Assembly (NCBI RefSeq): GCF_039537965.1
Contig: NZ_BAABBM010000001.1
Span: forward strand, 1,488,001 to 1,552,000
Source of the DNA: Sphingomonas limnosediminicola
GTDB taxonomy: Bacteria; Pseudomonadota; Alphaproteobacteria; Sphingomonadales; Sphingomonadaceae
DNA: 64,000 nucleotides
Direction of reading: 5' to 3'
Positions 23,603 through 30,310 of the stretch are shown piece by piece. The notes below the pieces were generated by a model. It had not been told where the DNA came from and made no database searches. It saw only the letters and a list, made by a program, of their open reading frames with translations. Within the stretch, counting starts at the first letter, position 1, and every line of letters begins with the position of its first letter. The position numbers and the translations under genes were made by a program.

Positions 23603-25735
23603 ATGACTCGCCTGCTTGCCGGTTCAATTGCCGTACTTCTCGCCTGCAGCGCCGGGCGCGCCTTCGCCGCTGACGCTGCTGCAGATGCCGGAACGGCCGA
23701 TGCCGGGGACAAAGGGACGATTACGGTAACAGGGCAGCGCGTGCAGTATGGCGTTCGAAAGACGAGCACTGCAACTAAGACGAACACTGACATCAAGGAC
23801 ATCCCTCAGGCGCTGACGGTCATCACCGCTGCGCAAATCGGAGATCAGCAACTGCGGTCTGTTTCGGACCTCCTCAATTTCGTGCCCGGCGCCTCCTACA
23901 ATTCAGGTGAAGGCAATCGCGACACGCTGGTGCTGCGCGGCAATTCCAGCACCGCCGATTTCTTCGTCGATGGCGTGCGCGACGACGTCCAGTATTTCCG
24001 CGACTTCTACAACGTCGACCGCGTCGAGGTGCTCAAAGGCCCCAACGCCATGATCTTCGGTCGAGGCGGTGGTGGCGGCATCATCAACCGCGTGCTCAAG
24101 CGGCCGAGGTTCAACACCGCGCGGTCGCTAGCGGCGTCGGGCGACGGCTTCGGCGGGTTCCGCCTCGCCGGCGACGCCGATCAGCCTCTCAGTGGCACCG
24201 TCGATGTCCGACTCAACGGTATGTACGAGAACGGCAATAGCTTTCGCCGCCATGTCGACCTGAAGCGCTATGGCATCAACCCGACCGCCGCGCTGATGAT
24301 CGGCCCGGACACGCGCATCGACCTCTCGTACGAATATTTCCACGACCGCCGCACCGCGGATCGTGGCGTGCCGTCGCTGGCCGGCGAGCCGGTTCGCGGA
24401 TTCACCCGCACCTTCTTCGGCGACCCGAACGACAGCTACGCACGGGTCAGTGCAAACGTCGCGACGCTCGGCATCGAACACAGCTTCAACGAGGGCCTGA
24501 CGCTGCGAAACCGCACGATGTTCGGCAACTTCGCGAAATTCTACCAAAACATCTTCGCCAACAGTGCTGTCCTGCCGGCGACAGCGACGCTGCCCGAACG
24601 CGTCCGTCTTGGCGCGTATAACAACCGCAACGACCGCACGAACCTCTTCAGCCAGACCGATCTGATCTGGGAGAACCGTCTCGCCGGCATCGACCAGACA
24701 CTGCTCGTCGGCTTCGAAATCGGCCATCAGAAGTCACGCAATCTCCGCAACACGGGCATCTTATCCGGATCCAAGCTCATCGATGGCAATGCGGTGCCGC
24801 TTAGCGATCCCACCGTCGACGTCGAAGCCGTGTGGGCGCCGATTGCCAGCGATGCCAACAATCGGGTCAAAGCAAGTGTCGCCGCAGCCTACATCCAGGA
24901 GCAGCTGCGCCCAGCGAGTTGGCTCGAGATCGTCGCCGGGATTCGCTTCGATAGCTTCAACACCCATGTCGACGACCTGCGGCCGACGAGCCCCGGCACG
25001 TTCAACCGTCGCGACAGCCTCTGGTCTCCGCGCCTCGGAATCGTCTTCAAGCCGGCCGACAATCTGTCGATCTACACGAGCTACAGCCGTTCCTATTTAC
25101 CGCAATCGGGAGACCAGTTCAGCGGCCTCACCAGCATCACGAAAGGCCTTACACCGGAGCGCTTCGACAATTACGAAGCGGGCGCGAAGTGGGAGATTTT
25201 CGATGGCCTGCTGGCGACAGCGGCGCTCTACCAGCTCGATCGCACCAACACCCGCGCGACCGATCCCACCGACCCGACGCGTATCGTGCTCACCGGCGCC
25301 CAGCGCAGCCGCGGCATCGAGCTCGGGCTCGAGCGTAGCATCACCAGCCGCTGGCTCGTCTCGGCGGGCTACTCACTCCAAAAGGCGGAGATATCCAAGA
25401 CCACGACTGCTGCGTCAGCCGGCCGCGAAGTGCCGCTCGTCCCGCGCCACAGCCTCTCACTTTGGAACCGCTATGACCTGACCAAACAGTTCGGCGTCGG
25501 CGTCGGCCTGATCGCTCGATCGAAGACCTACGCGACTATCAGCAACGCGGTGAAGCTGCCTGCCTACGCCCGCGTCGATGGCGCCCTCTTCTACACACTG
25601 CCGCGCGGGGTCGAGGCGCAGATCAACTTGGAGAACCTCCTTGGCGCGCACTATTTCCCGACCGCCAACGCCGATAACAATATCGCGCCGGGCGCACCCC
25701 GCACGATCAAGGCCACCGTCGGCTACAGCTTCTAG
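23603..25735 (+). CDS. TonB-dependent siderophore receptor
   Basis: A 710-residue outer-membrane receptor. The signal peptide ends near AFAAD (about 23). The plug domain (about 60-165) contains DIPQALTVITAAQI, LRGNSSTADFFVDGVRDD and VEVLKGPNAMIFGRGGGGG, the usual siderophore-receptor plug landmarks. The rest is a 22-strand barrel ending in Phe (ATVGYSF), the outer-membrane insertion signal. Together with the Fur-like box upstream this points to ferric siderophore uptake, similar to FhuE/FcuA-type receptors; the exact siderophore cannot be read. The stop shares a CTAG with the convergent udgX stop. Confidence 0.92.
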   Translation: MTRLLAGSIAVLLACSAGRAFAADAAADAGTADAGDKGTITVTGQRVQYGVRKTSTATKTNTDIKDIPQALTVITAAQIGDQQLRSVSDLLNFVPGASYNSGEGNRDTLVLRGNSSTADFFVDGVRDDVQYFRDFYNVDRVEVLKGPNAMIFGRGGGGGIINRVLKRPRFNTARSLAASGDGFGGFRLAGDADQPLSGTVDVRLNGMYENGNSFRRHVDLKRYGINPTAALMIGPDTRIDLSYEYFHDRRTADRGVPSLAGEPVRGFTRTFFGDPNDSYARVSANVATLGIEHSFNEGLTLRNRTMFGNFAKFYQNIFANSAVLPATATLPERVRLGAYNNRNDRTNLFSQTDLIWENRLAGIDQTLLVGFEIGHQKSRNLRNTGILSGSKLIDGNAVPLSDPTVDVEAVWAPIASDANNRVKASVAAAYIQEQLRPASWLEIVAGIRFDSFNTHVDDLRPTSPGTFNRRDSLWSPRLGIVFKPADNLSIYTSYSRSYLPQSGDQFSGLTSITKGLTPERFDNYEAGAKWEIFDGLLATAALYQLDRTNTRATDPTDPTRIVLTGAQRSRGIELGLERSITSRWLVSAGYSLQKAEISKTTTAASAGREVPLVPRHSLSLWNRYDLTKQFGVGVGLIARSKTYATISNAVKLPAYARVDGALFYTLPRGVEAQINLENLLGAHYFPTANADNNIAPGAPRTIKATVGYSF

Positions 25736-27159
25736 CCCGCTAGCTCCGCGGCGCGGTCCTTGATGCGCTTGAGGTCGCGGACGAACAGGGCGCGCTCTTC
25801 GCGGCGGCGGTCTTCTTCGGGAATCCGAAGAAGGAAGCTGGGGTGGACGGTGATCCAGCATTCGCTGCCGTCGGCGAGCTGGAGCGGGACACCGCGGTTC
25901 TTGCCGATCGCCATCGTCTTGCCGAACAGGCTGTGCGCGGCGGTTGCACCTAGGGCGACGGTTACCGGCGGGCGGATCAGCTCGCGCTCATGCTCGATCC
26001 ACCAGCGGCATGCTTCGATCTCCCCGGCGCCCGGCTTGCTGTGGATCCGTTTCTTGCCGCGCGGCACGAATTTGAAATGCTTCACGGCATTGGTGACGTA
26101 GGTCGTCGAGCGGTCGATCCCGGCCTTCTCCAACGCTGCGTCGAAGAGCAGTCCGGCCGGGCCGACGAACGGACGGCCGGCGAGGTCTTCCTGGTCACCC
26201 GGCTGCTCGCCGACGAACATGATCGAAGCGTTAAGCGGGCCCTCGCCGAACACGGTCTGGGTCGCATGCTTGTAGAGGTCGCAGCGCGTGCATTTGCGCG
26301 CGCCCTTCAGCAGGGCTTCCCACGATGCGCGAAGATTGCCGCCGGGCTCGATGCGGCTCTCCGCTTCAAGGGCGTGCTGCAACCCTTCCTTGGCGACGGA
26401 CCGGTCGACCATCTCCAGCTCCCTGTGCCGCGCTCCGGCGATCAGGGGCTGAACGAGCGAGGTCTCCGGCATGTTGCGCCAATATTTCTTCGGCATTTCC
26501 TTGAGCATGGCGCCGACCTTCAGCCGCGCCGGATTGAAGATGCTGGCGTAATAGGTGCGCCACGTCTCCTCCAGCGGGTCGCCAGCCGGCGCTTCGGCTC
26601 GCGTGGCGCCGGGGCCCTCGGTCAACCTCTCGCCGTCCCAATGGATCGACAGCTCCGGGGTCAGGATCGACCAGCGCATGTTGGTGAAGCGATTGACGAA
26701 GAAGTTCGCGGCCCGGCGGACGATGTGATGCTCTGGCTCGAAGAAGGCGACGAAGCGATCGTCGATTTCCCGGAAGCGAACGAAGGCGTGCATCTTGTGA
26801 ATATCGCGCCGGACGGCCTTCGCGAGATCCTGCAGGCGGCGGACGAGCGGATCGGCCTGGTCGTCCAGCGCGTGACGGTCGGCCTTCAGCCTTAAGAGCA
26901 TCGCGTAGAGCAGCGCGAACCGTTCCGGGTCCAAATGGCAGATGACGGACTTGGCAAGGTCGACGAAAGCGCGCGGGACGGGGAAGCTCGGCGCCGGCGG
27001 CGGCTCGACGTCCGAACCGAACAGGTCCGCCTCGCCGCCTTCGACCTGCCAGACGACCGCGCTTGCGGGAACGCCCGCTTCGGCGAGGTCGCGCGCGGCG
27101 TCGCGCCAACCGTCGAAATCGTCGGGCGCGGGGAGCGTTACGCGATTCGCATCGATCAT
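25732..27159 (-). CDS. udgX: DUF4130 - UdgX fusion (uracil-DNA glycosylase family, covalent uracil-DNA-binding type)
   Basis: A 475-residue fusion. The N-terminal part (about 1-250) matches DUF4130, named 'putative DNA metabolism protein' in TIGR03915. The C-terminal part (about 285-470) is a uracil-DNA glycosylase fold of the UdgX type: GEQPGDQED at 317-325, the KKRIH loop at 369-373 and HPS at 439-441. His373 aligns with the histidine that in characterised UdgX forms a covalent bond to the abasic sugar after uracil removal. Cys290, Cys293, Cys384 and Cys434 can hold the iron-sulfur cluster. ATG 27159 has AAGG upstream; GTG 27177 is an alternative. It follows the radical SAM gene by 20 bp in one operon. 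Confidence 0.92.
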   Translation of the reverse strand: MIDANRVTLPAPDDFDGWRDAARDLAEAGVPASAVVWQVEGGEADLFGSDVEPPPAPSFPVPRAFVDLAKSVICHLDPERFALLYAMLLRLKADRHALDDQADPLVRRLQDLAKAVRRDIHKMHAFVRFREIDDRFVAFFEPEHHIVRRAANFFVNRFTNMRWSILTPELSIHWDGERLTEGPGATRAEAPAGDPLEETWRTYYASIFNPARLKVGAMLKEMPKKYWRNMPETSLVQPLIAGARHRELEMVDRSVAKEGLQHALEAESRIEPGGNLRASWEALLKGARKCTRCDLYKHATQTVFGEGPLNASIMFVGEQPGDQEDLAGRPFVGPAGLLFDAALEKAGIDRSTTYVTNAVKHFKFVPRGKKRIHSKPGAGEIEACRWWIEHERELIRPPVTVALGATAAHSLFGKTMAIGKNRGVPLQLADGSECWITVHPSFLLRIPEEDRRREERALFVRDLKRIKDRAAELAG

Positions 27160-27179
27160 TGGGCCTTCGCGTAACACGA

Positions 27180-28424
27180 TCAGGCCGCAAACAGCTCCAG
27201 CTGATGTTGTTTCGGCGCAATCAGCATGCGCAGGTCGGCTCGGTCAGTTACCAAGGTCGGCCGCCAATCCGACGTGCTGATGAACGGGCGCACCTTCGTG
27301 ATCGACAAGGTCAGACGGGCGATGTCGTCGAGCCCAAGCTTCCGCCAACGCCGTGACGAAAGGATGCGCTCCACCGCCTTGGTTCCAAGCCCGGGAACGC
27401 GCAGTAACATCTCCTTTGGCGCCCGATTCACGTCGACCGGAAAGCTTTCGCGGAACTTGAGCGCCAAGGCGAGCTTGGGATCAATGTCGAGGGGCAACAT
27501 GCCATGCTCGTCGGCCGCGCTCTGCACCTCCTTCGGCGCGAAGCCATAGAAACGCATCAGCCAGTCGGATTGGTAAAGTCGGTGCTCGCGCATCAGCGGC
27601 GGGCGCTGGAGCGGTAGGACCGCGCTGGCGTCGGGGATCGGCGAGAAGGCCGAGTAATAGACACGGCGCAGACCGAAGCGAACATAGAGCGTACTTGCCT
27701 TGCCGACGATGTCAGCGTCGCTTGCGGCGTCGGCACCGACAATCATCTGCGTCGACTGTCCTGCAGGCGCAAACTTTGGGGCCGACTTGAAGTGCTTCGC
27801 CGCGTCCCCGGCATCAGCAATCGACGCTTTCATGTCGCGCATTGCGCTCTCGATCCGGGCGGCATCCTTCTCCGGCGCCAGCTTGGTGAGGCCGGTTTCG
27901 GTCGGAAGCTCCACGTTGATCGAAATGCGGTCGGCATGAATGCCAGCCTGCCGAACCAGCTCCGGGTCGGCGTCGGGAATCGTCTTCAGGTGAATGTACC
28001 CGCGAAAGTCGTGGTCCTCACGCAGACTGCGGGCAACCTCGACGATCTGCTCCATCGTGTAGTTGGACGAGCGGATAATGCCGGAAGAGAGGAACAGGCC
28101 TTCGATGTAGTTGCGCTTGTAGAAAGCCAGCGTGAGCCGGACGACTTCTTCCGCCGTGAACCGCGCGCGACGGACGTTCGAGCTCTTGCGATTGATGCAA
28201 TAGGCGCAGTCGAAGATGCAGCTGTTGGTCAGCAGGATCTTGAGAAGCGAGATGCAGCGTCCGTCGGGCGCGTAGGCGTGGCAAATGCCCATGCCTTCGG
28301 TCGATCCAACGCCCTTGCCGCCTTTGCTGTTGCGGCTCGATGTCCCGGACGATGCGCAGGACGCATCATATTTTGCCGCGTCAGCAAGGATCGCGAGCTT
28401 TGCCTGGACGTCCAACTGGGCCAT
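27180..28424 (-). CDS. UDG-linked radical SAM protein (TIGR03916-like), putative DNA modification/repair
   Basis: A 414-residue protein. The radical SAM cluster motif is CX3CX2C at Cys69, Cys73 and Cys76 (NSCIFDCAYC). The core continues through LFLSSGII and the SAM-binding strands, with ISINVELPTE typical of this subgroup. The C-terminus (about 335-375) has a helix-hairpin-helix DNA-binding motif, VPGLGTKAVERIL, so DNA is the probable target. This is the family that regularly sits beside DUF4130/UdgX genes; its reaction is, as far as I know, undetermined. An exact LexA-type box lies directly upstream, so SOS induction is expected. No clear ribosome-binding site precedes the ATG, consistent with a leaderless transcript. 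Confidence 0.92.
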   Translation of the reverse strand: MAQLDVQAKLAILADAAKYDASCASSGTSSRNSKGGKGVGSTEGMGICHAYAPDGRCISLLKILLTNSCIFDCAYCINRKSSNVRRARFTAEEVVRLTLAFYKRNYIEGLFLSSGIIRSSNYTMEQIVEVARSLREDHDFRGYIHLKTIPDADPELVRQAGIHADRISINVELPTETGLTKLAPEKDAARIESAMRDMKASIADAGDAAKHFKSAPKFAPAGQSTQMIVGADAASDADIVGKASTLYVRFGLRRVYYSAFSPIPDASAVLPLQRPPLMREHRLYQSDWLMRFYGFAPKEVQSAADEHGMLPLDIDPKLALALKFRESFPVDVNRAPKEMLLRVPGLGTKAVERILSSRRWRKLGLDDIARLTLSITKVRPFISTSDWRPTLVTDRADLRMLIAPKQHQLELFAA

Positions 28425-28426
28425 GT

Positions 28427-28441
28427 GTTCTATTTATGTTC
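28427..28441 (-). promoter_or_regulatory. LexA (SOS) box, GTTC-N7-GTTC
   Basis: The plus strand reads GTTC TATTTAT GTTC, an exact match to the direct-repeat operator recognised by alphaproteobacterial LexA (GTTC-N7-GTTC). It ends 2 bp before the radical SAM start codon, where bound repressor would cover the promoter or transcription start. A second element, GGAC-N7-GTCC (inverted repeat, 28444-28458), lies next to it. The 125-bp gap also serves the divergent DUF885 gene. Confidence 0.75.
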
Positions 28442-28549
28442 TTGGACTTTTTATGTCCATACAGGCATTTAGCGGTAGTCGACGAACCGGCGTTGCAATC
28501 AGCCATAACGCGCTTAGGCTCCGCCCCACACTGCTTGGGGGATGGGCAG

Positions 28550-30310
28550 ATGCGCAAGTTGACAACGTTGCTCGCGGCCGCGGCCGTATTGTCGATTTCG
28601 GCGCCGGCGTTCGCCGGGCCGACCGAAGATTTTCACGCGCTGATGGATCAGTACTGGGCCACGTTGCTCAAGGAGTCGCCGTTGCTGGCAAGCCAGGCGG
28701 GCGTCCATGAGTATGACGCGCAGCTCGACGAGGTCGGCACTGTCGCGATGGACCGGCAGACGGCCGAGGCGGCGGGCTTCCTCAAACGGCTCGAAGCCAT
28801 TCCTCCAGCATCGCTGACCGCCGCCGACCAGGCCAATTATGCGATCCTGCGCGGGCAGCTGAAAAACAGCATCGAGTTCAATCGCTTCGGCGAGCGGATG
28901 GTGCAATATTCGTCGAACGGCAGCTACCACAACAGCCTGCTTGACCAGCTGACATCCTTTCCGCTGCGCACGCGCGCGGATTACGACAACTATCTATCGC
29001 GGCTCGCGTTCTTGAAGCAGCGCATCGACGCTTACGGCGCGATGAGCGCGGACGCGGCGCGCAAGGGTTATGTGCAGCCCTGTGTCACCGAGACGCGGCT
29101 CGCCGGGACCATCACCGGTGTCGTAGCCGCCGACCCAACCAAGTCGCGCTTCTACGCACCGTTCACCGGTGTTCGCCCAGCGACGATCGCGCCGGCCGAC
29201 TGGGCGGCGATGCAGGCGAAGGCCCGCGACATCGTCGGCGGGCAGATCAACCCCGCCTACACCAACCTCGGCGCGGTCTTCGCCAAGGATGTCATCCCGC
29301 GCTGTTCGAGGACAATCGGCGCCTCCTCCCTGCCCCAGGGCAAGGATTATTATGCTTGGCTCGTCCGGTTCCACACGACGACCGGCAAGACACCGGACGA
29401 GATTCACCAGCTTGGCCTCAGCGAGGTTGCGCGCATTCGCGCCGAGATGGACGATGTCGCCAAGAAGGCCGGCTTTGCCTCGCGTCAGGCGATGATCGCC
29501 GAGATGCGGACCAACCCCAAATATTTCGCCAAGACGCCGCACGAACTAATGGAGGCGGCCGCGCTCCAGGCAAAGATCCTCGACGGCAAGATGCCGACCC
29601 TGTTCGGCCGTCTTCCGCGCCTTCCTTATGGCGTGAAGGAAATTCCGGCCGAGACCGCCGAGGGCAACACAACCGCTTACTATATTCCCGGCAGTCCGGA
29701 CGCTGGGATTGCCGGCACCTACTTCGTCAATACCACCCACCTCGACCAGCGGCCGCTGTGGGAATTGCCTGCGCTGACGGCGCATGAAGCCGTGCCGGGC
29801 CACCATAACCAGATCGCGCTACAGCAGGAGCTAGAGATGCCGCCGTGGCGGCGGTACACGACCTTCTTCACGGCCTTTGTCGAAGGATGGGGACTGTATT
29901 CGGAGCGGCTCGGTATCGAGATGGGCCTCTACGATACGCCCGAGAAGAACATGGGCCGCCTGTCCTACGAAATGTGGCGCGCCTGCCGGCTGGTGGTCGA
30001 CACGGGCATCCACTCCAAGGGCTGGACCAAGAAGCAGGCGGTTGCCTTCATGAAGGACAATACCGCGCTGACCGACGAGAATATCGACGCCGAGGTCAAC
30101 CGCTACATCTCCACGCCCGGACAGGCGCTCGCTTACAAGCTGGGCGAGCTGAAATATCGCGAGCTTCGGGCGAAGGCGGAAAAGGAGCTGGGCGGAAAGT
30201 TCGACGTGCGCCGCTTTCACGACGAGCTGCTGGGGCAGGGCCCGCTGCCGCTCGATGCGGTCGAGACGCGGATCAACGCGTGGATCGCCGCGGAGAAAGC
30301 GAAAGCCTAA
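28550..30310 (+). CDS. DUF885-family exported metallopeptidase-like protein
   Basis: A 586-residue protein starting at ATG 28550 with GGGGGA 7 bases upstream. The frame is open further upstream, but this start gives a signal peptide (MRKLTTLLAAAAVLSISAPA, cleavage near AFAG). HEAVPGHH at about 412-419 is the DUF885 signature and resembles a zinc-peptidase HExxH-like site, followed by an EGW motif (FVEGWGLYSE). Family members are thought to be periplasmic or secreted peptidases; substrates are unknown. It is divergent from the SOS-boxed operon and shares stop-codon bases with the convergent DUF1206 gene. Confidence 0.9.
   Translation: MRKLTTLLAAAAVLSISAPAFAGPTEDFHALMDQYWATLLKESPLLASQAGVHEYDAQLDEVGTVAMDRQTAEAAGFLKRLEAIPPASLTAADQANYAILRGQLKNSIEFNRFGERMVQYSSNGSYHNSLLDQLTSFPLRTRADYDNYLSRLAFLKQRIDAYGAMSADAARKGYVQPCVTETRLAGTITGVVAADPTKSRFYAPFTGVRPATIAPADWAAMQAKARDIVGGQINPAYTNLGAVFAKDVIPRCSRTIGASSLPQGKDYYAWLVRFHTTTGKTPDEIHQLGLSEVARIRAEMDDVAKKAGFASRQAMIAEMRTNPKYFAKTPHELMEAAALQAKILDGKMPTLFGRLPRLPYGVKEIPAETAEGNTTAYYIPGSPDAGIAGTYFVNTTHLDQRPLWELPALTAHEAVPGHHNQIALQQELEMPPWRRYTTFFTAFVEGWGLYSERLGIEMGLYDTPEKNMGRLSYEMWRACRLVVDTGIHSKGWTKKQAVAFMKDNTALTDENIDAEVNRYISTPGQALAYKLGELKYRELRAKAEKELGGKFDVRRFHDELLGQGPLPLDAVETRINAWIAAEKAKA

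Follow-up and report, generated by a model that had tools for sequence, protein, structure and literature searches.

The closest described counterpart of the locus examined here is a gene pair of Bacteroidetes belonging to families COG1573 and COG4277, for which LexA control was predicted and which was put forward as a putative uracil-based base-excision system in the accessible portion of the report (PMC8565304); that portion also cites Verrucomicrobia and Alphaproteobacteria, and Erill 2016 and da Rocha 2008 appear among its references. The same two families occur under predicted LexA control in a 64,000-nt stretch of the Sphingomonas limnosediminicola genome (contig NZ_BAABBM010000001.1, positions 1,488,001 to 1,552,000; hereafter the window), where a gene for a radical S-adenosylmethionine (SAM) protein is followed by one encoding a fusion of DUF4130 with the uracil-DNA glycosylase (UDG) UdgX. 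We take the family of this radical SAM protein to be COG4277, the name also used in the report on Bacteroidetes. Unlike the pair described there, the present operon is sphingomonad and joins DUF4130 and UdgX in one polypeptide, and the accessible portion of PMC8565304 makes no mention of DUF4130, of a clamp-binding motif or of the leaderless geometry described below. The SOS link of the radical SAM/UDG pair is already published and is not new. What appears to be new is a putative clamp-binding tail on the radical SAM protein, for which we found nothing in print in a literature search combining radical SAM with clamp-binding motifs.

Comparison of this locus with its homologues leads us to regard it as probable that the operon encodes a radical SAM repair enzyme that is induced by the SOS response and tethered to the replication clamp, DUF4130 being its core partner and UdgX an add-on DNA trap. 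All three parts score far above the cut-offs of the corresponding NCBIfam models: 560.2 bits against a curated cut-off of 343.5 for the radical SAM protein (TIGR03916), and, for the fusion, 213.5 bits against 112.25 for TIGR03915 and 315.1 bits against 189.95 for TIGR03914. The model descriptions consulted state neither a clamp motif nor any regulation; the TIGR03916 radical SAM family is a widespread one. Two collections of homologues were used. A TIGR03916 homologue above the cut-off is encoded by 156/296 genomes in the order sample, and our order set comprises 150 of these 156 homologues (149 fetched loci and the window itself), the other six having no listed place. The named set consists of the best 80 of 593 loci; it is biased to close relatives, is mostly alphaproteobacterial by title and partly overlaps the order set.

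The radical SAM protein ends in QLELF followed by two alanines. In 137 of the 150 order homologues a Q[LM]xLF sequence lies within the final 14 residues, the remaining 13 tails reading QFELF (4), QLQLL (1) or taking the hexapeptide form Q[LM][SA]LAL (8). In the named set, 64/80 tails conform to Q[LMF]xLF and 16/80 carry a variant. The tail glutamine also aligns in 14/14 diverse sequences, following a linker of variable length; these represent alpha-, beta- and gamma-proteobacteria, Bacteroidota, Bacillota, Fusobacteriota and Gemmatimonadota, with two taken from phage-labelled records. When the same patterns and tail lengths were applied to 675 other long open reading frames (ORFs) of the fetched DNA, one matched the strict pattern, 6 matched the variant pattern that fits all 150 homologues, and 10 matched the looser pattern that fits all 80 named loci (1 and 4 of 664 ORFs with a shorter tail). 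In their accessible parts, published accounts give the clamp-binding consensus as QL[S/D]LF or QxxLF (PMC12309361) and as QLxLF, usually C-terminal (PMC4549789). Residues 408-414 have a predicted local distance difference test (pLDDT) score below 50 in the predicted model, as expected for a flexible tail, so that a motif of the QL[S/D]LF/QxxLF type would be accessible as in clients of the β-clamp, and the genome contains a match to the DnaN domain. Comparison thus shows a conserved motif of the β-clamp-binding type at the C-terminus, in a tail for which flexibility is predicted. This tail recurs in Pseudomonadota, Bacteroidota, Bacillota and Fusobacteriota and would tell where the enzyme should act, namely on replicating or gap-filled DNA, and the putative clamp tether is the part of the operon that merits an experiment.

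Evidence for the LexA operator derives from its position and conservation, which exceed controls, although the bare pattern does not: GTTC-N7-GTTC occurs four times in the window against 2.05 expected, and 73 times in the 2.85-Mb genome against 71 matches for a backwards control, and pattern counts alone, being at chance level, were rejected as a measure of the significance of the box. GAAC-N7-GAAC is found on the coding strand between -200 and +15 relative to the radical SAM start in 141/150 order homologues and on the opposite strand in 8 more, for a total of 149/150, whereas reversed and other-spacing control patterns occur in 0-2/150. The sole order homologue lacking the box (L009) is from another family and has GAAC-N6-GAAC. 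Within the named set, a box is located between -250 and +15 in 75/80 loci (control, 1/80). A betaproteobacterial homologue from Caballeronia instead carries, 29 nt ahead of its start, the sequence CTGT-N8-ACAG, which we take to be the LexA site of beta- and gammaproteobacteria. The comparison shows that a LexA-type operator has a fixed place immediately ahead of the radical SAM start codon, placing a GTTC-N7-GTTC site of the alphaproteobacterial LexA regulon in the putative promoter.

The genome itself has a lexA match and a recA match, with boxes 25 bp and 149 bp ahead of them, respectively. Of its 73 box matches, 20 were fetched after visual selection of those with a core rich in A/T; families were searched for 10 adjacent ORFs. 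Those that fit an SOS role encode uvrA, an ImuA-like protein, rmuC and a PA0069-family radical SAM protein; rpsB, a GGDEF protein, ribonucleotide reductase and a ParB-like protein are not obviously SOS genes, and for two of the 10 ORFs the family search gave no family. An earlier note, made from the window sequence alone, had proposed SOS control of the operon and named absence of the box from close relatives as one observation that would count against it. Such absence affects only 1/150 order homologues, and SOS control is strongly supported by the comparison. The note was also accurate in its reading of the layout, in that the box is exact and lies 2 nt ahead of the radical SAM ATG (28424-28422, minus strand), and the fusion follows 20 bp downstream, with its ATG 20 nt past the radical SAM stop codon. 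Its account of the locus did not extend to the putative clamp-binding tail or to three further invariant cysteines in the radical SAM protein, nor did it remark that operator, -10-like core and start codon overlap.

This overlap is a recurrent feature of the family. The box ends exactly 2 nt ahead of the ATG in 110/141 same-strand order loci and in 36/70 loci of the named set. As the 141 loci were selected by their exact GAAC halves, those eight positions carry no further conservation signal, and the informative positions are the free ones within the box, with T at position 5 in 139/141, A at position 6 in 140/141 and A at position 8 in 117/141. Conservation beyond the GAAC halves among the 141 homologues is seen at box positions 5-8, the ATG spacing and a TTGNC element 18 nt upstream, with the remaining flank near random; the sequence T[TG][GT]NC is present exactly 18 nt ahead of the box start in 65/141, compared with 0-5 at nine control offsets. 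The TA at box positions 5-6 is missing from the lexA and recA boxes of the same genome, which suggests a promoter function for this dinucleotide and not one in LexA recognition. By standard sigma-70 spacing, the succession of TTGNC, 17 nt, a TATAAR-like hexamer, six bases and ATG would make +1 coincide with the first base of that ATG. The -35-like motif, together with an operator core rich in A/T, suggests a promoter that is blocked by LexA and yields a nearly leaderless mRNA. A pattern capturing this module, GAACNTANNNNGAACNNATG, is present in 68/99 family genomes, compared with 0/99 for the backwards control, and GAACNTANNNNGAACNNATG precedes a radical SAM gene in 17/30 loci inspected. The other ORFs behind it that were tested comprise six ImuA-like proteins (none of which reaches the curated cut-off) and one Y-family polymerase.

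The operon resembles the imuA-imuB-dnaE2 SOS mutagenesis cassette, the polymerases of which use the clamp, in that ImuA-like genes too are preceded by a LexA box near their start codon. Furthermore, in 12/80 named loci (L215, L216, L219, L220, L222, L223, L224, L228, L229, L231, L235 and L240) both imuA and imuB are found on the same strand within 4 kb upstream of the radical SAM operon, the imuB match ending between ~50 bp and 1.9 kb ahead of the radical SAM gene. That cassette differs in being a polymerase system, and in S. limnosediminicola ~400 kb separate the ImuA-like gene from the operon. The main texts of four Caulobacter/SOS papers (PMC12700426, PMC6120978, PMC9578287 and PMC12907096) do not contain the terms 'uracil', 'radical SAM' or 'glycosylase', and four uracil-DNA-glycosylase genes, CC2333 among them, are listed in the accessible part of PMC1839093.

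The distribution of the partner domains points to DUF4130 rather than UdgX as the constant companion of the radical SAM protein. TIGR03915 is above its cut-off in 156/296 genomes, the same ones as TIGR03916 (the two lists were compared by reading), in keeping with a pairing of the two models that we take to be a rule of the family. TIGR03914, representing UdgX, is above its cut-off in 163/296. UdgX is found above cut-off without the radical SAM protein above cut-off in at least seven genomes (G056, G112, G176, G196, G272, G289 and G290), and the radical SAM protein with DUF4130 occurs without UdgX above cut-off in two (G193 and G276). Downstream sequence of 1,600 bp or more was available for 119 order loci: a fused DUF4130-UdgX gene directly follows the radical SAM gene in 109, DUF4130 is otherwise arranged in 4, and no DUF4130 is present in the stretch in 6; among named loci with a readable partner, 9/74 are without UdgX. 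Beyond Pseudomonadota, plasmids of Spirosoma (Bacteroidota) and Pusillibacter (Bacillota) have an annotated radical SAM gene followed by a TIGR03915 gene, and in Fusobacterium, Phocaeicola and two phage-labelled loci the next ORF, of 239-265 aa, scores above the TIGR03915 cut-off and matches no UDG family. Since the radical SAM protein and DUF4130 share 156/296 genomes while UdgX comes and goes, the two former constitute the apparent core and UdgX an add-on. In view of this pairing, the partner that would be needed for activity should be sought in DUF4130 instead of UdgX. DUF4130 had already been linked to UDGs and to photolyase-like enzymes of the radical SAM type (accessible part of PMC3765255). 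Two protein searches returned only close relatives among the matches listed (best 120 each), and the structure-search lists for the fusion protein were filled by UdgX matches.

The UdgX half closely resembles Mycobacterium smegmatis UdgX (PDB 6AJO, 6IOD, 8IIE and others), with ~50% identity over ~187 columns and Foldseek root mean square deviations of 1.1-1.5 Å, and the GEQPG motif, the R-loop His and the HPS motif are common to both. In contrast to the solved chains, which comprise ~200 residues and are without DUF4130, the present protein is fused to DUF4130 and is encoded behind an SOS-boxed radical SAM gene. The glutamate and glutamine of GEQPG (motif A), the R-loop His and the HP of HPS (motif B) are each conserved in 52/52 UdgX-bearing rows, bearing out the KKRIH loop that the earlier note had recognised. 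The roles of these residues, including the R-loop His, and the presence of a 4Fe-4S cluster in UdgX are described in the accessible part of PMC10359453. By comparison, the UdgX half keeps the residues that would be needed for covalent binding to abasic DNA. Of the four cysteines that had been assigned to an iron-sulfur cluster, C290 (47/52), C293 (47/52) and C384 (48/52) are conserved, and C434 is present in 1/52 only and so is unlikely to be a cluster ligand of the family. H361, conserved in 49/52, may be the fourth ligand, presumably, judging from the position of the corresponding residue in family-4 UDGs.

In the radical SAM protein, the CX3CX2C motif reported previously is present, and its cysteines are invariant in both of our alignments (A3, 58 rows; A2, 14 rows). 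Three further cysteines (C23, C48 and C57), located where model confidence is low, are nearly as well conserved (Table 1) and might ligate an auxiliary cluster. The C-terminal helix-hairpin-helix that the earlier note described is present as a Pfam HHH_3 match, but a weak one that falls below its cut-off. No solved structure was related to the protein by sequence at E<=0.01, and a Foldseek search with the predicted model recovered the general radical SAM barrel, with HydE, lipoyl synthase and biotin synthase ranked first.

We consider the following, fuller scheme to be somewhat better than evenly supported: TIGR03916 proteins would carry out clamp-guided radical DNA repair, induced by the SOS response through an operator merged with the -10 element and a leaderless ATG, with DUF4130 as a constant catalytic or delivery partner. 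LexA bound over the -10 element would block transcription; once LexA is cleaved, RNA polymerase would start at or beside the A of the ATG and produce a leaderless or nearly leaderless mRNA. The radical SAM protein would then dock on DnaN through QLELF while its helix-hairpin-helix contacts DNA, and together with DUF4130 it may direct a 5′-deoxyadenosyl radical at a nucleotide, either damaged or misincorporated, where forks are stalled or gapped. Where fused, UdgX might cap uracil-derived abasic sites and thereby prevent them from being cut into breaks.

Other explanations of the locus can be weighed against this scheme. The operator also lies ~110 bp ahead of the ATG of the divergent DUF885 gene (28550) and could in principle serve that gene instead. 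A DUF885 gene is near the radical SAM gene in only 11/150 order loci and 1/80 named loci, whereas the distance from box to radical SAM ATG is kept, so the box belongs to the radical SAM gene and the alternative is highly improbable. The earlier note offered, as one of two possible roles of the radical SAM enzyme, resolution of the covalent UdgX-DNA adduct. The shared operon and the fusion, which follows the radical SAM gene directly in most order loci, are what this idea would predict, but the radical SAM-DUF4130 pair exists without UdgX in two genomes of the order, in some named loci and in the loci from Bacteroidota, Bacillota and Fusobacteriota, and UdgX above its cut-off exists without a radical SAM protein above cut-off in at least seven of the 296 genomes. 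Given this pattern of presence and absence, adduct resolution was rejected as the principal explanation, and we regard it as unlikely.

Two further proposals concern the reaction itself, and to each we assign a minor share of the probability. The enzyme might be a photoproduct or thymine-lesion lyase resembling SplB, as SOS control and a helix-hairpin-helix fit a DNA substrate; SplB is absent, though, from the NCBIfam matches and from the matches listed in the structure searches (Foldseek best 1000), among which HydE, lipoyl synthase and biotin synthase come first, and an SplB match of lower rank is conceivable. The enzyme might instead install a DNA mark or modified base that is then read or removed by DUF4130/UdgX, a function other than repair that would suit both the NCBI family name 'putative DNA modification/repair' and the tendency of radical SAM enzymes of this fold class to insert or rearrange atoms. 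Damage handling is nevertheless a better fit to the SOS control, the proximity of imuA-imuB and the clamp motif.

Several observations weigh against clamp-guided, SOS-induced repair from a leaderless transcript. Short motifs such as QLELF can be decoys. Five of the 80 named loci are boxless (L263; L275; L272, Xanthomonas; L285, Acidovorax; L287, Pseudoxanthomonas), two of them alphaproteobacterial. With regard to the promoter, a strict sigma-70 scanner found none in the whole window, base 6 of the -10-like hexamer is rarely T (22/141), and AGGA, GGAG or GAGG, a possible ribosome site, occurs in or beside the box in 25/110 fixed-geometry loci, so that a leaderless start is not needed in all of them. 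Class-wide, the leaderless module is in modest excess, with 21/289 genomes against 9/289 for the backwards pattern. Separated DUF4130-UdgX genes have no exact box of their own upstream in any of the six testable loci (0/6), which led us to reject an own LexA box for these genes and implies that the partner is not always under LexA; in a seventh locus (L194) the sequence breaks off where the gene begins, and L190 has an exact box match inside the gene. Finally, the Gemmatimonadota sequence, one of the 14 diverse ones, is a Gemmatirosa relative (L291, 3001-4263) that scores 303 bits, below the TIGR03916 cut-off of 343.5, and is without C23, C48 and C57.

Table 1. Positions of the operon, its domains and its control elements, numbered from the first nucleotide of the window.
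Feature	Position	Strand	Remarks
LexA operator (SOS box)	28427..28441	.	GTTC-N7-GTTC on + is GTTCTATTTATGTTC; read toward the radical SAM gene, GAACATAAATAGAAC
Radical SAM gene, TIGR03916 rSAM_link_UDG, 414 aa	27180..28424	-	profile match 560.2 bits
DUF4130-UdgX fusion gene, 475 aa from ATG	25732..27159	-	alternative GTG at 27177 gives 481 aa
TIGR03915/DUF4130 domain, constant partner of the radical SAM protein	26461..27126	-	NCBIfam profile match
UdgX domain (TIGR03914)	25762..26457	-	NCBIfam profile match
R-loop KKRIH with covalent-linkage His	26041..26055	-	His 52/52
CX3CX2C radical SAM cluster motif, C69-C73-C76	28197..28220	-	invariant 58/58 (A3), 14/14 (A2)
N-terminal stretch with extra conserved C23, C48, C57	28254..28358	-	58/58 (A3), 13/14 (A2)
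Helix-hairpin-helix, probable DNA-binding element	27351..27440	-	HHH_3, 20.2 bits, cut-off 27
Putative β-clamp-binding motif QLELF, residues 408-412, radical SAM C-terminus	27189..27203	-
-35-like hexamer TGGACA (inferred)	28454..28459	-
-10-like hexamer TAAATA inside operator (inferred)	28431..28436	-	spacer 17 nt; predicted +1 is the A of ATG
DUF885 protein gene, divergent from the radical SAM operon	28550-30307

Some individual loci depart from the common arrangement. In the Gemmatirosa relative, the ORF following the radical SAM gene is not DUF4130-like, yet the protein's C-terminus ends in a QLSLW motif. In one locus with a separated DUF4130-UdgX gene (L188, 44-526), that gene directly follows a gene for a hemerythrin-domain protein and has no LexA box. 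A second radical SAM gene of the S. limnosediminicola genome, of the PA0069 family, has GTTC-N7-GTTC 24 bp ahead of its start (G000:C1:453598-453612; L304). Viral relatives amount to 2 loci in IMG/VR and 10 records labelled phage. One record named Acinetobacter phage (L288, CAKLQH020000003.1) has glyS, glyQ and aidB around the radical SAM-DUF4130 pair and looks like a mislabelled bacterial contig, and the plasmid collection includes a Fusobacterium record of 2.1 Mb (L292, NZ_CP084075.1) that is probably a chromosome.

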